A DNA stretch of 64,000 nt from Odiellus spinosus (taxonomy: Eukaryota; Arthropoda; Arachnida; Opiliones; Phalangiidae), in the NCBI GenBank assembly GCA_963920705.1, contig OY987225.1, positions 30,937,538 through 31,001,537 of the forward strand. The letters run 5' to 3'. The notes beneath the pieces were generated by a model, which was not told the DNA's origin, did no database searches, and worked only from the letters and a program-made list of their open reading frames with translations. A program made the position numbers and the translations under genes. The number at the start of each line of letters is the position of its first letter. The first letter of the stretch is position 1. This document shows, piece by piece, positions 7,660 to 25,184 of the stretch.

Positions 7660-9065
7660 TTAAGCAGCTGGATTTCCTGCTACGATTGGGTAACTGGCCA
7701 TGGTGGTTATTCCGCAGAAATTAGATCCGCGGAAAAGCTTGAAGTATCCATTTTCGCCCCAAGTTGGGCCCCAACTGTACCACGGAATATTTCAGTTTCG
7801 GCTACGTGAATTACTCACGAATTAGGCTTACCTGTTTTTGACCAGGTAGTAAGGCTTTCCACCCTCGGTACCGTAACCAACAACCAAAACAGCGTGATTG
7901 ACCTTCGAGGTACATTTGCTGTCGTCGTAAACTCCGTTTTTGTACAACTGGAAAGATCTTTGTCCAGCATCAATACCGACAGCCAGTGGTCCGATGGTGG
8001 CCAAAACGTTCATCAATTTGTTTTCGTGCTTAGGCAATTCCTTGTAGTCTACGATAGTAGCGGTATTGCAGCCTTCGTCGTAACGGCAAGTTCCTTCCTA
8101 TATTAAAATCACCCGTTAGGCTTAAGGTGTTTACGTTTACCGTCGGTGCACTTTTCACCTTCATTTCGTAAGGGTAACAAGTATCGCTAACGATACCGCC
8201 ATTCTTGATGATGTATCTGTAAGCTCCAGTTGGATTTCCACCATTGCATCCGAAGTTGAAGAACTTCTTGTCCGCGCAATCTATGTGTTTGTATAAAATG
8301 CTACGTTTGGCTAGTTTCCTTTATGTAACAAAATCGTCACTGTAAACGAAAAGGCCTTGCGAGATAAAACGCGCCTGACGTAACCATTGAGGATTCGGTT
8401 CCATCAAAAACAACGGGTACAAGCCATTTTACATAATTACCAACTAAGTTTTGCTCTGATAGGGTTACTCTCTTGTTCTGATAGATGGCAAGGTGAGCTT
8501 CAATGGCACCAGTCGCGGCGAAAGACCAACAAGATCCGCACGACCTCTACGATATCATAGATCTTGGTCGTTAGGCCTAACATAAAACTTAAGCCTATTT
8601 AAAATTAAACAACCTGGTTTTTAACAACGCTGGTGTAGCTAGTCCAATCATGACTTTCCGGGATTTCTTTCAAGGGTTCTTGAGCTTCCAATGATTGGCT
8701 GGACGAATTAGTTTCGACGTAAATCAAACCCAAAAACTTAGATCTGAAATCGTCCTCAGACTTAAACGACAACGAACTTTGAAATTTTGAGCCTTATGAC
8801 TTAAAAGATTCAAATTATCTACCAAATCAGAGTGCTCGTTGATACCGAGGGTGAAAGACTTCAAACCCAAATCAGCTTCAAGATTGTGACTAAGTACGGC
8901 TTCAACGTTAGACTTGAAAGCCTCCTTCCTTTGCGATTCGGTTGCCGAGTCATAGTCCTTACCATGCTTAGACTTAAAGGATTCCCAATGGTTATTAATG
9001 GATGTGGACAGTTCCAAACCCACCGCCAAAGTAGCCAAAAGCACGAAACAAGTAAACCTCAACAT
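7660..9065 (-). CDS. cathepsin L-like cysteine protease, copy 3
   Basis: C1A protease zymogen. Six exons: 9065-8823, 8760-8614, 8546-8441, 8280-8159, 8097-7832, 7774-7660, giving 332 codons. Signal peptide ([16 protein letters not shown]), then the I29 propeptide in one 81-codon exon (no intron after [14 protein letters not shown] is continuous), ERFNIN helix, mature domain from about SHDWTSY. Catalytic Cys136 in CGSCWSF, His in VNHAVL, Asn in KNSWG. The intron between NLV and DC is phase 1, 4 nt from the phase-0 intron of copy 2 at the same place. The first exon, the QNKRV segment and the CYPYEMK end resemble copy 5, so copies 3 and 5 are probably a duplicate pair in the same orientation with copy 4 between them. 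Confidence 0.9.
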
Positions 9066-9184
9066 CTATATGGTAGAAGTGTTTTTTTGGCTTAAATCAT
9101 TTGGAAACACTAATGGCAAACTCACCCCAATTTTCAGTCTGGAAACAAAAGAACCTAGGTTACTGAGATTTTGGGACTTATATA
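9066..9184 (-). promoter_or_regulatory. TATA box and 60-bp 5'UTR intron of cathepsin copy 3
   Basis: On the minus strand a TATATAAG box lies at 9184-9177. A donor (ggg|gtgagt) sits at 9125 and an acceptor (catatag) ends exactly at the base before the ATG at 9065. This gives a short leader exon and an intron of 60 bp abutting the start codon, the layout also seen in copies 5, 6 and 8. Confidence 0.65.
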
Positions 9185-9251
9185 AGAATAAGGATCGGTA
9201 AATAATAAAACTAGGCCTAAGTCTCAAGATTAATTGCGAAATATTTTCCAT

Positions 9252-9639
9252 TGTTTCGAAGGAATCACTTGTCTAGATGTCATTCATTTCTAGGTCTTTT
9301 CACGTGAATGACATTGAGTGTTAAGATTTGTTACACCTGCCACAGAAATACGAAAGGAAATCTATTTGCATATTGGCATTCAAATTCAATCTTGAAAAGT
9401 TAATTAATCATTAATTTAACGTAAATAAAAAAACTAAAACCACTTATAAAGCATCATCAAATTCGTGGACTGTCCAACAGACGTCAATTTGAAATTGCTC
9501 TGCACTCCAAGCTCAGTCCTAGGTATGTTCTGGTTTATAGTTTAAAGGTTTCTTGAAATATGGAGAGCATGCCTTTTACTTTAGTAAAGTCTCCGAATAA
9601 AGATTATCAGCTTATTACAATTACTGAACTCCTTTAGCC
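9252..9639. other. intergenic region between copies 3 and 4
   Basis: The head-to-head spacer between copies 3 (-) and 4 (+). I looked here for a propeptide exon of copy 4 (W-x-x-F-K, ERFNIN helix, FADM-like end followed by GT) and found none, which supports the reading that copy 4 lacks a prodomain. Confidence 0.5.
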
Positions 9640-10671
9640 ATGGTTTCATATTTATTGTGGATCAGTTTGGGAATTTTTATAATTCAAGGGTGGCCATCAA
9701 GTGCTCAAGAATTACCAGAAACACTAAATTGGGCAGAGAAAGGCTTAGTAACCCCAGTTAAATCACAAGTAAGCAATGAACTAGATTTAATCGAATAAGT
9801 ACATTGCTTTAATTTAAATAATTAGGGAAAATGCGCGAATGGTTGGGCTTTCGCCACTGTTGGAATTGTTGAAGGAGCGCATGCGCTGAAGACAGGAAAA
9901 CTTATAAACATGAGTGAGCAACAAGTAACCGATTGTTTGCGGGGTAAGTTTATTTCATTCTCAATAAATTAAAAACTCTAATAAAGGGTAAAAATAGAAG
10001 GAGAAACTGGGGGATGCAATGGAGGAAATGACGTCAAAACAGCCTTGAATTATGTCATGGAAAATAAGGGTTTGGATACGTCTTCTTGTTACCCATATCG
10101 TTATAAGGTAAGTATTTAAATTTGATATTTAAAATCAACAGCTTAAATTTTACCCGGTAAGTAATTACAAATGCAGGAGGGAACTTGTCAGCGCAATTAC
10201 CATTACATTTGTCAAGGAGGCAAGATAACAGCCATGGGGTTTGTTCAAAAAAATAACGAAGCTGCCTTGAAGGAAGCGCTGTACCGTACGGGACCCATGG
10301 GTGTCATGATACATGCCTCGGATAAATTTAATCAATACAAGTACATTAACTACTAATTCATTTTAATCATTTTAGCTAAATTGATTTTGATGTTTTACAG
10401 TGGTGGGATTTTTATGGGCGAAGATTGTTCACCGAACTCTATCAATCACGGCGTACTATTGATTGGTTACGGTACAGAAGCGGGACAAGATTATTGGTTG
10501 ATTAAGAACAGGTTAGGATTGTAAAGTTTGAAACTAAAAGTTGATATTTGAATATTTGGTAATTGTTACAGTTATGGTCCCACTTGGGGAGAGGCAGGTT
10601 TCGGTAAAATTGCCAGAAATAAGGGTAATACATGTGGTATAGCTTCAGCAGCCGTTTTTGGTATTGCCTGA
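9640..10671 (+). CDS. propeptide-less, catalytically dead cathepsin L-like protein, copy 4
   Basis: Six phase-consistent exons: 9640-9768, 9826-9943, 9998-10107, 10177-10340, 10401-10511, 10572-10671, giving 243 codons. The first exon encodes a hydrophobic signal peptide ([16 protein letters not shown]) joined within a few residues to the mature N terminus ([17 protein letters not shown]), so the I29 inhibitory propeptide is missing. The active-site motif reads GKCANGWAF where active relatives have GxCGSCWAF, so the nucleophile is Gly49. The His (INHGVL) and Asn (KNSYG) remain, but the conserved Trp after Asn-Ser is Tyr. Frame, splice sites and structural Cys (GCNGG, CYPY, CGIA) are intact and AATAAA signals follow the stop, arguing for a maintained gene rather than a pseudogene. 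Role unknown; a secreted non-enzymatic binding or decoy protein is a guess. Confidence 0.88.
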
Positions 10672-10861
10672 TTGATGTTTTGAGTATTAAATAAATAAAG
10701 ATTGAAATCGTATTATAATACTACTTGCGTTATATTTTACATTTTAACTATATATATATAAATAATAAAATTATACTTTTATATATGATACAAAATTTTA
10801 TTGGTTCGCTATTAAAAAAAAAGTACAAAAGTTCAAAGTTAAAATTCACTGTCCTGGTTTA

Positions 10862-12149
10862 CTATGGTGCGACAACTGGGTAGCTAGCCAAATTGGTAAC
10901 TCCGCATCTGTTCTTGCCACGGGCCAATTTGAAGTAACCGTGATCGCCCCATGAGGTACCCCAACTAAAACATGGCCATACGAAATTATGTCAATGTTAG
11001 ACATCACATTTTAGTAGCCATAAGTTAAAAATTAGGCTAGTGTCGACTCTTTACCTATTCTTGACCAAATAATAAGGTTTTCCGTTCTCAACACCATATC
11101 CTACAGCCAAGACGGCGTGGTTAGGCCTATCCTTACACATAGCATTATCGTAGACGCCGGTCTTGTAAAGCTAGCGGGTCGTAGACAAATTAGTGCAAGT
11201 TCGAAAAACTTAAGTTTCTCAAGTCCTTTACCTGGAAGTCCCTCTGTCCAGCATCGATTCCGATCGCTACTGGTCCCTTGTTGGCCAAGGCATCCACCAG
11301 GTTTTTCTCATTACCTCTTTGCAAGTGCTTGAAACCGGTAATGGTAGCAGTGTTGCAAGAGGAATCGTAACGACAAGTACTCTCCTTCATTTCATAGGGA
11401 TAGCAAGTATCGCTGTCCAATCCACCGTTTTGAATGATGTACCTGTAAGCGTTATCTGGAAGACCCCCGCTGCAGCCGTAATTGCCATAAGTTCGACCAC
11501 TGCAGTCGACAAGGTTTTGCTCTGATAGGCTTACTCTCTTGTTTTGGTAGATAGCGACGTGGGCTTCTACGGAACCAGTAGTGGCGTAGGCCCAGCAAGA
11601 ACCACAAGCTTTCTAAATAGTTAATTGAACATTTCATAAACTCGTATTCCCTAAATTTACGAGTCGTCGGTCGAAATTACTTGATTTTTAACTGGGGTAA
11701 CGAAAGTAAGCCAATCCTTGCTTTCGGGAACGTCTCCCACTGGTTCATCTTCGCCCAGTAAGCCCTCAGTCTCGTTGAGAGCCGATTCGTCGTAACGGAG
11801 ACCCAAGTAAGTAGCTCGGAACTCTTCGTTTGACTGAATTTTATATACCGTCAAAATATACTCTACCACTTCTGGTTGGAATTTACAACGAGGTTTAAAA
11901 ACCTACCATATCTGCAAAAGCGTTCAACCCCAAGGTGTAAGACTTCAAACCAAGATCGGCTTCGATGTTATGCTCGAAACAAGCTTCAACGTTGTCTTTG
12001 AAAATCTCTTTTCGTTGTTGTTCGGTATCTTCGTCGTAGTTCTTGTTGTGTTTGGCTTTGAAGGCGGACCAATGATTGACCAAAGACGTGATGACTTCTT
12101 GGCTAACCACCATGGTTAACAGCAACGTGCAGATAGTAACGCGCAACAT
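10862..12149 (-). CDS. cathepsin L-like cysteine protease, copy 5
   Basis: C1A protease zymogen. Five exons: 12149-11907, 11833-11681, 11612-11232, 11170-11055, 10964-10862, giving 331 codons. Signal peptide ([16 protein letters not shown]), I29 propeptide in one 81-codon exon, mature domain from about [14 protein letters not shown]. Catalytic Cys138 in CGSCWAY (Tyr for Phe), His in PNHAVL, Asn in KNSWG. The third exon runs unbroken for 127 codons from the active site through NLVDC, CYPYEMK and DAGQRDFQ, where copy 3 has two introns. The intron after DFQ (phase 0) is at a position different from the phase-2 intron after LQxY of copies 6 and 7. Confidence 0.9.
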
Positions 12150-12152
12150 TTT

Positions 12153-13422: not shown

Positions 13423-14885
13423 ATGTCGGGTTTGTTAAAATTGTCCGTTTTGTTTTGCGTAACGTTAACTTTCTTGCAAGTTAACGGAAGTACGCACGAA
13501 ATTTGGCAAAAATTCAAAGTAGGTTGTTAGCGCGCCGTTTTCTTCTTGGGAACAATGTATTAAACCACGAGTTGCCCATTGTATTTTAGCAAACGCACTC
13601 CAAGGATTATCATCCTCACTTGGAAAGCAAGCGCAGAATTGTTTTCGAAGCTAACGTACAAGCCATCGCTGATCATAACATTAAAGCCGACTTGGGACTA
13701 GCTACTTTCAAGCAAGGATTGAATCCTTATACTGACATTGTAAATTGAATTCTACCTGACTCAAATGAAATCTGAACAGAAGTATATATTGACTTTTTCT
13801 TTTAGCCTCATGACGAATTCGTCAAGACTGTTAACGGCTACAAGAAGTCCCGCAATAGTGAACTTCTTTCTAACGTTCAAGAGCACCAAGTTGAAAGTCT
13901 TCAACTACCGAATGAAGTTGATTGGGTTAAAAAGGGTTTAGTTTCTTCCGTCAAGAACCAAGGTAGTTGCGGATCTTGTTGGACCTTTTCAACCGCCGGG
14001 GCTGTCGAAGGTGCCTACGCTTTGAAAACCGGTAAATTGGAACCACTTTCTCAACAACACTTGTTGGATTGTTCGGTTGATGGTAACTACGGATGTGATG
14101 GAGGCGAACCAGCTATCGCTTTGCAATGGGTTGTCGACAACAACGGGTTAGACAAGGAAGGATGCTATTCTTACAAAGGAACCGTAAGTATTTGGAGGAC
14201 CATTGCAATTAAACAGTTGTGAAAATTGGCATTAGAACATAAGCAAGTCTTTGGACCAATGACGTTTCAGGGCTACTCGGCAATCGGGCTTTAATTTTTT
14301 AATTTGCAGCAAGGAAAATGCAGACCAGTTAGTAGCTGTCTTTCTGGCAAGATCAAGAGTTACAAGAGGGTCCCTAAAGGTGACGAAGTGGCTTTGAAAG
14401 AAGCTCTATCTCGTGTTGGACCAATCTCTATCGCTATTGACGCTAGTCACGAGAGTCTCCAAAATTACGAGTACGCTTAATTACGTTTAATCATCCCACG
14501 AGTTAAAAGGTTAATCTCAGTTAATTACAGTTCTGGAGTGTACAGCGAAAAAAACTGTGACCCAGAAGCCTTAGATCACGCCATTTTATTGGTTGGTTAC
14601 GGTACCGAAGATGGACAAGATTATTGGAAGATTAAAAACAGGTAATTAGGATTTAATTACCCGTACTAATGTAGTAATTAGAAATTAACGATGATTTAAT
14701 TTTGGCAGTTGGGGAACTTATTGGGGAGAAGGTGGTTATTTCAAGGTAAGTTATCCGGAAGTTATATTAATTAATAATTTTTAATAATAACCGAGTTTTA
14801 ATATTTTTTTAATCGAAATTAGATGGCCAGAAACAAGGGTAACATGTGCGGAGTTGCTACCGAAGCTTTCTACGGAGTTGCTTAA
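13423..14885 (+). CDS. cathepsin L-like cysteine protease, copy 6
   Basis: C1A protease zymogen. Seven exons: 13423-13518, 13590-13739, 13806-14183, 14310-14470, 14531-14641, 14709-14745, 14823-14885, giving 331 codons. Signal peptide, I29 propeptide split by an intron after IWQKFK, mature domain from about [17 protein letters not shown]. Catalytic Cys140 in CGSCWTF, His in LDHAIL, Asn in KNSWG. The 126-codon third exon runs through the junction that is split in copies 1-5 and 9. A late intron after GYFK is unique to this copy. AATAAA lies 25 bp after the stop. Its IDASHESLQ segment is shared with copy 7, suggesting these two are close relatives. Confidence 0.9.

Positions 14886-23314: not shown

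Positions 23315-25184
<1,870 letters not shown>

Follow-up and report, generated by a model that had tools for sequence, protein, structure and literature searches.

A cathepsin L-type gene without propeptide or catalytic cysteine in a gene array of Odiellus spinosus

The cathepsin L array and the structure of g9

The window, by which we mean the whole stretch of 64,000 nt analysed here, contains cathepsin L-type genes arrayed over both strands, from position 1 to approximately 25,200. At its left edge (positions 1-512) lies a tandem array of a 16-bp repeat, perfect over most of its length. The searched genome comprises 443 Mb in 286 contigs. Using a spliced aligner, 26 C1 peptidase genes were modelled, ten of which are in the array and are named by their window kilobase: g0 (which runs past the window edge), g4, g5, g8, g9, g11, g13, g17, g20 and g24. 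The models leave out six loci with other C1 genes, cathepsin B-like and others (L017, L019 and L022-L025). One of them, L024 (C3:6425000-6430000), contains a C1-like gene with the motif NCASSWAIS, with serine at the cysteine position, which we take to be perhaps a TINAG-like protein. A second cathepsin L array (G000:C3:9976000-10005999, L010-L012) has seven genes, including the nearly identical c3b and c3c, and each of the seven shows both the catalytic Cys and an I29 match. The neighbours of g9 that matter most below are the following.

7660-9065, minus strand: g8, array neighbour, divergent to g9, with propeptide and catalytic Cys (CGSCWSF)
10862-12152, minus strand: g11, array neighbour; propeptide present, motif CGSCWAY
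13423-14885, plus strand: g13, nearest paralogue of g9 in the tree (bootstrap 69); propeptide present, motif CGSCWTF
23315-25157, plus strand: g24, second dead gene of the array, CGSATLF (Cys25 to Ala, W26 to T)

The g9 coding sequence consists of six exons that join into 732 nt, that is, 243 codons plus TGA, with no internal stops and GT/AG borders at all five introns. The open frame through six exons claimed in the preliminary description is thus intact, and none of the marks of a pseudogene (frameshift, stop or broken splice site) was found.

9640-9768, plus strand: coding exon 1, signal-like peptide (approximately residues 1-22) fused to the mature N terminus
9826-9943, plus strand: coding exon 2, active-site loop GKCANGWAF (G23A, S24N, C25G)
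9998-10107, plus strand: coding exon 3, GGCNGGND
10177-10340, plus strand: coding exon 4
10401-10511, plus strand: coding exon 5, retaining His (NHGVLL) and Asn (KNS) of the catalytic site; the sole DNA match to g13
10572-10671, plus strand: coding exon 6, with W177 replaced by Y, the final disulfide Cys and the stop TGA
10690-10699, plus strand: overlapping AATAAA polyadenylation-like signals 3' of the stop, recognised by eye

The predicted protein belongs to the papain fold family C1A by descent, with a full-length Peptidase_C1 domain (PF00112; residues 25-241, 223.4 bits, profile positions 1-219 of 220). Its score is lower than those of five neighbours with the catalytic Cys (242-281) and higher than those of g24 (216) and g0 (193). 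Four of its intron positions (44.0, 120.0, 174.2 and 211.2) are common to several paralogues, and the fifth, 83.1, adjoins their 84.1/85.1. Five introns at or beside paralogue positions led us to reject an origin as a processed retrocopy, and a chance open frame was rejected in view of the full-length Pfam match and the conserved columns described below. We also rejected a second copy or an assembly duplicate: the genome-wide DNA search returned g9 itself and one 79-bp match in g13, while the protein search returned exons of other genes at identities of at most 60%. In the maximum-likelihood tree of the 26 genes, g9 groups with g13, and the nearby deeper nodes are weak.

The 5' end and the missing propeptide

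According to the preliminary description, the signal peptide is joined directly to the mature N terminus with no propeptide in between, and both statements are borne out. The signal-like stretch of exon 1 is followed by the Peptidase_C1 domain from residue 25, and Pfam Inhibitor_I29 has no match on the g9 protein. A genome-wide I29 search, in which the best candidates were scored, gave 26 matches (23 above the curated cut-off), with none at g9 and one at each of the eight other complete array genes. A propeptide HMM built from 21 of the 26 gene models scored 50.8-108 bits in these eight neighbours, all of them among its training rows. Across 9066-10700 its best score was 2.4 bits, compared with up to 5.1 bits in 50 mononucleotide shuffles of 9066-9640. 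The divergent g8, with its ATG at 9065, leaves approximately 570 bp upstream of g9. A hidden propeptide exon at g9 was rejected because the I29 and propeptide profile searches were empty there; g9 lacks the I29/ERFNIN propeptide of cathepsin L subfamily zymogens. By eye, 22 of the 23 I29 matches above the cut-off lie in or beside a modelled gene, and the remaining one (C4:7662305) is located approximately 5 kb before gene c4a. It is unlikely that a separate I29-only gene supplies g9 with a propeptide.

Upstream of the coding sequence, a putative promoter element and a putative untranslated exon can be placed as follows.

9445-9451, plus strand: TATA-box-like TATAAAG, 195 nt upstream of the g9 ATG, a consensus match only
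9475-9522, plus strand: putative g9 5' untranslated exon, with an approximate start, ending at the donor CTAG/GTATGT
9523-9637, plus strand: putative g9 5'UTR intron (GT...AG), with the acceptor CTTTAG two bases 5' of the ATG

TATA-like matches are likewise found upstream of g5, g8, g11 and g13. Taking out 9523-9637 as an intron eliminates three upstream ATGs (9525, 9560 and 9569). Among the five genes scanned for it, the donor pattern in the 5' region occurs in g9 and g13 only, and an AG directly precedes the ATG in g8, g13, g17 and g20, though not in g4, g5, g11 and g24. The g9 ATG therefore looks like a genuine start, sitting behind a splice acceptor as in four of its eight complete neighbours. 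At the protein level, the signal-like start of g9 is similar to its g17 counterpart (local score 50, matched by none of 2,000 shuffles); among the eight neighbours compared, g4 came second (score 25, 27 of 2,000 shuffles as good) and the other six showed nothing. The DNA similarity between the g9 and g17 signal exons was not significant (417 of 1,000 shuffles as good). Under the (-3,-1) rule for signal peptide cleavage, a predicted cut after A22 would give a mature protein starting with QELPETLNW; the mature chain of fibroinase begins at the position matching g9 L25.

Active site, scaffold and selection

The active-site motif of g9 is CANGWAF, in which G49 (codon GGT) takes the place of the catalytic C25, so that the loss of the nucleophile and the replacement of CGSCWAF noted in the preliminary description hold. 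Papain numbers are those we take to be equivalent from the alignment and from recall. Around this glycine lie Q43 (Q19), C46 (C22), A47, N48 and W50, and two further catalytic positions are present as H190 (H159) and N210 (N175). Of the residues expected in an active cathepsin L peptidase, g9 has Gln19, His159 and Asn175 and lacks Cys25. Next to this, Y212 (TAT) replaces W177.

We defined conserved columns as those identical in at least 22 of the 23 paralogues with the catalytic Cys (the 26 models minus g9, g24 and g0), and g9 retains 36 out of 42. The six changes are G47A, S48N, C49G and W212Y (papain G23, S24, C25 and W177) and the mild L72M and L77V. They affect four of 11 active-site columns against two of 31 others (one-sided Fisher p = 0.032, for a site set chosen knowing the changes). 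By the same measure, g24 has lost nine of 43 columns and g0 eight of 41, while each of the 23 active genes, compared with the others, has lost between zero and four. Six of the eight g9 cysteines (46, 80, 89, 113, 183 and 232) align to the canonical C1A disulfides, presumably C22-C63, C56-C95 and C153-C200, and the remaining two (123 and 131) form an extra pair seen in the array. Judged from these aligned positions, all three canonical disulfides appear to be available. Since the loss of Cys25 leaves an even number of cysteines, all at array disulfide positions, a free thiol is probably absent and an unpaired one in the protein is unlikely. By its predicted sequence, g9 is an inactive cathepsin L homologue in the sense used for beetles, at least in the available text of that work: an L-like mature domain with an active-site substitution (PMC4336737).

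Two other array genes bear on the argument that an enzyme unable to cut needs no zymogen control. Like g9, g24 has a dead active site, but its I29 propeptide exon is still there, and more of its conserved residues are gone, among them C63 and the GG pair at the S1 site. For g0, which extends on the minus strand from window position 819 down into locus L009, with a possible first exon near 2241, six exons give a readable, very diverged mature domain that has Cys25, His and Asn; the genome-wide I29 search, among the best candidates scored, found no match for it. Visual inspection points to a possible propeptide-like exon near 2027, decayed and containing a stop. Either g0 is a degenerate gene or it is another propeptide-less one; both g0 and g24 look degenerate. 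The argument is reasonable, but it does not amount to a rule here, given a dead gene that keeps its propeptide exon and a gene with Cys25 for which none was found.

The codon tests used 21 of the 26 gene models (g0, c3b, c3c, c15w and c3h were excluded), with fits run to at most 150 iterations. Silent sites have largely lost their signal: fourfold third bases of g9 and g13 are identical at 13 of 43 positions, i.e. at the chance level (0.29 expected), despite a protein identity of 48.6%. They are also near chance against g17, c4a, c4b and g5, and above chance against g20 (19 of 40, 0.32 expected). One exception in the DNA is the His/Asn exon, where g9 10445-10520 and g13 14575-14653 share 82% identity over 79 bp. 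Against otherwise random silent sites, this match suggests that the exon may have been converted by g13, which makes the retained His and Asn weaker evidence.

An omega of 1 on the whole g9 branch was rejected (2dlnL = 23.0), and in a conditional neutrality test the observed value was 21.9; the highest among 200 neutral simulations was 5.6. The free estimate of omega on this branch, 0.016 against 0.064 in the background, a non-significant difference, is not usable because silent sites are saturated. An omega of 1 was equally rejected for g13 (2dlnL = 14.6) and for the degenerate-looking g24 (32.1). Since the branch spans time before any loss and g24 rejects neutrality too, the test alone does not mark g9 as functional. 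The earlier claim that selection has kept the gene is therefore upheld along the g9 branch as a whole; for the period since the loss, taken separately from the time preceding it, the support is only indirect.

That indirect support comes from the length of neutral evolution that the gene can accommodate. Codon data alone permit a neutral tail of up to approximately 0.12 substitutions per site before two log units are lost, and the profile for g24 is nearly the same. Once stop codons and splice sites are counted, a g9 tail longer than approximately 0.025 costs more than two log units. The rough binomial probability of at least four changes in the 11 active-site columns is 0.003 at a tail of 0.027, 0.014 at 0.043 and 0.04 at 0.06. 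Because few active-site changes are expected in so short a tail, the active site probably changed while the remainder of the protein stayed under selection, and decay of g9 by chance appears unlikely.

These figures also weigh on the strongest competing account, a young pseudogene in which the propeptide was recently deleted, the protein is unfolded or unmade and stops have not yet arisen. A loss this recent is compatible with the data below approximately 3% neutral divergence; for a neutral divergence of up to 0.06 substitutions per site, or up to 0.043 with splice sites, the chance of seeing no stop exceeds 5% (indels uncounted). The account also draws on the degenerate look of g0 and g24 and on the failure of the branch test to separate genes such as g24. 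Against it, four active-site replacements are more than so brief a neutral period would readily produce, one of them (W to Y) requires two base changes, 36 of the 42 conserved columns are kept, and the canonical six cysteines and every splice site are intact. We regard it as possible, if unlikely. That g9 has another catalytic role, or a structural or storage role, rather than inhibitor binding, is very unlikely. Gln19, His159 and Asn175 are retained and the papain-fold silicatein, which has a non-digestive role, is among the matches recorded, but glycine cannot act as a nucleophile and the tryptophan beside the His-Asn pair is lost. Most improbable of all is that g9 is a normal dead zymogen whose propeptide exon escapes notice through divergence or distance, or is included through an alternative start: first exons do diverge fast in the array, but the profiles find nothing in the short interval before g8, and the g9 ATG, behind its acceptor, opens a signal-like peptide.

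A possible binding role and known counterparts

The reading that we consider probable is that g9 encodes a secreted papain-fold pseudopeptidase of approximately 24 kDa, with a cleft open from secretion and used for binding without cutting. An array cathepsin L paralogue would have lost its propeptide-coding stretch and its catalytic Cys, in either order, most simply through an in-frame deletion that joined the signal exon to the exon carrying the mature N terminus. Signal peptidase alone would be expected to free the mature protein, leaving the cleft open with no activation needed. The analysis establishes the gene anatomy, the two losses and the preserved frame and scaffold; that g9 is expressed, that its product is secreted and folds without a propeptide, and that it has a binding partner, we infer. 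The likeliest use would be the uptake of cysteine-peptidase inhibitors from food or from the animal itself, as a decoy protecting active paralogues; alternatively, the same protein might hold substrates or ligands. A decoy for cystatin-like inhibitors is our first guess, because this function needs no nucleophile and requires a cleft free of propeptide. Cystatins bind inactivated papains. Counting against a decoy, W177Y, G23A and S24N may impair not only catalysis but also the binding of cystatin-type inhibitors. A propeptide-free g9 also has to be set against the help in folding with which C1A propeptides are credited in the consulted part of PMC3355106. In its fullest form, the proposal would be that the domain evolved to fold and be secreted without a propeptide and has been kept as an always-open, thiol-free inhibitor sponge shielding the array's active digestive enzymes; as a whole, this is speculative and rather unlikely.

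Dead cathepsin L homologues of the beetle gut are already published (PMC4336737). Like g9, the tenebrionid TmL29 and TmL30 (Tenebrio) and XP_970773 (Tribolium) are paralogues of cathepsin L in which the catalytic Cys has given way to another residue (QA, ES), and for them expression in the gut or in feeding stages is documented (PMC4336737, PMC4727968). XP_970773 maps to the chromosome that carries the principal digestive cathepsin L genes (PMC4336737, PMC4727968). In the available text of these reports, the beetle proteins have Ala or Ser at the Cys position and XP_970773 has no predicted signal peptide, whereas g9 has Gly, a signal-like peptide and no propeptide. The extracts on Tribolium describe a dead cathepsin L homologue expressed in feeding stages that does not respond to dietary inhibitors, and a dead cathepsin B homologue that rises 18-fold on them (PMC4727968).

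The closest counterpart is SjCL3 of Schistosoma japonicum, from a different phylum, which is reported, in the text available to us, to have neither the catalytic residues nor a propeptide, the same double loss as in g9 (PMC12266431). With at least this one published case, g9 is a variant of an already known phenomenon. For insects, we found no case with both losses in the open-licence literature under the few wordings searched. A non-enzymatic, pro-coagulant activity is described as demonstrated for an arthropod's secreted dead cysteine-protease paralogues; the likeness to g9, drawn from that description, is that of a secreted dead paralogue, and the masses predicted for their recombinant forms, 36-37 kDa, exceed that of a mature domain alone. 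Soybean P34 (Gly m Bd 30K) is a papain-family protein that, like g9, has Gly for the catalytic Cys and, unlike it, comes from a plant and is made with a propeptide. A review on P34 calls its family membership uncertain and, in the text available, does not confirm those details (PMC10931198).

If the proposed role is right, g9 would be a further case for the idea, so far little tested, that insect-gut pseudoenzymes act as decoys. That dead paralogues can matter is suggested by RNAi in a leaf beetle, where, in the available account, knockdown of dead GH28 proteins impaired larval growth more than knockdown of active ones (PMC6549527). The roles ascribed to C1A propeptides are inhibition and targeting as well as folding (PMC3355106, as far as its available text goes). 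A selected, secreted member of the family without a propeptide would, if true, separate those roles in nature, and g9, if it folds propeptide-free, would be a natural test of whether folding in the C1A family needs the propeptide.
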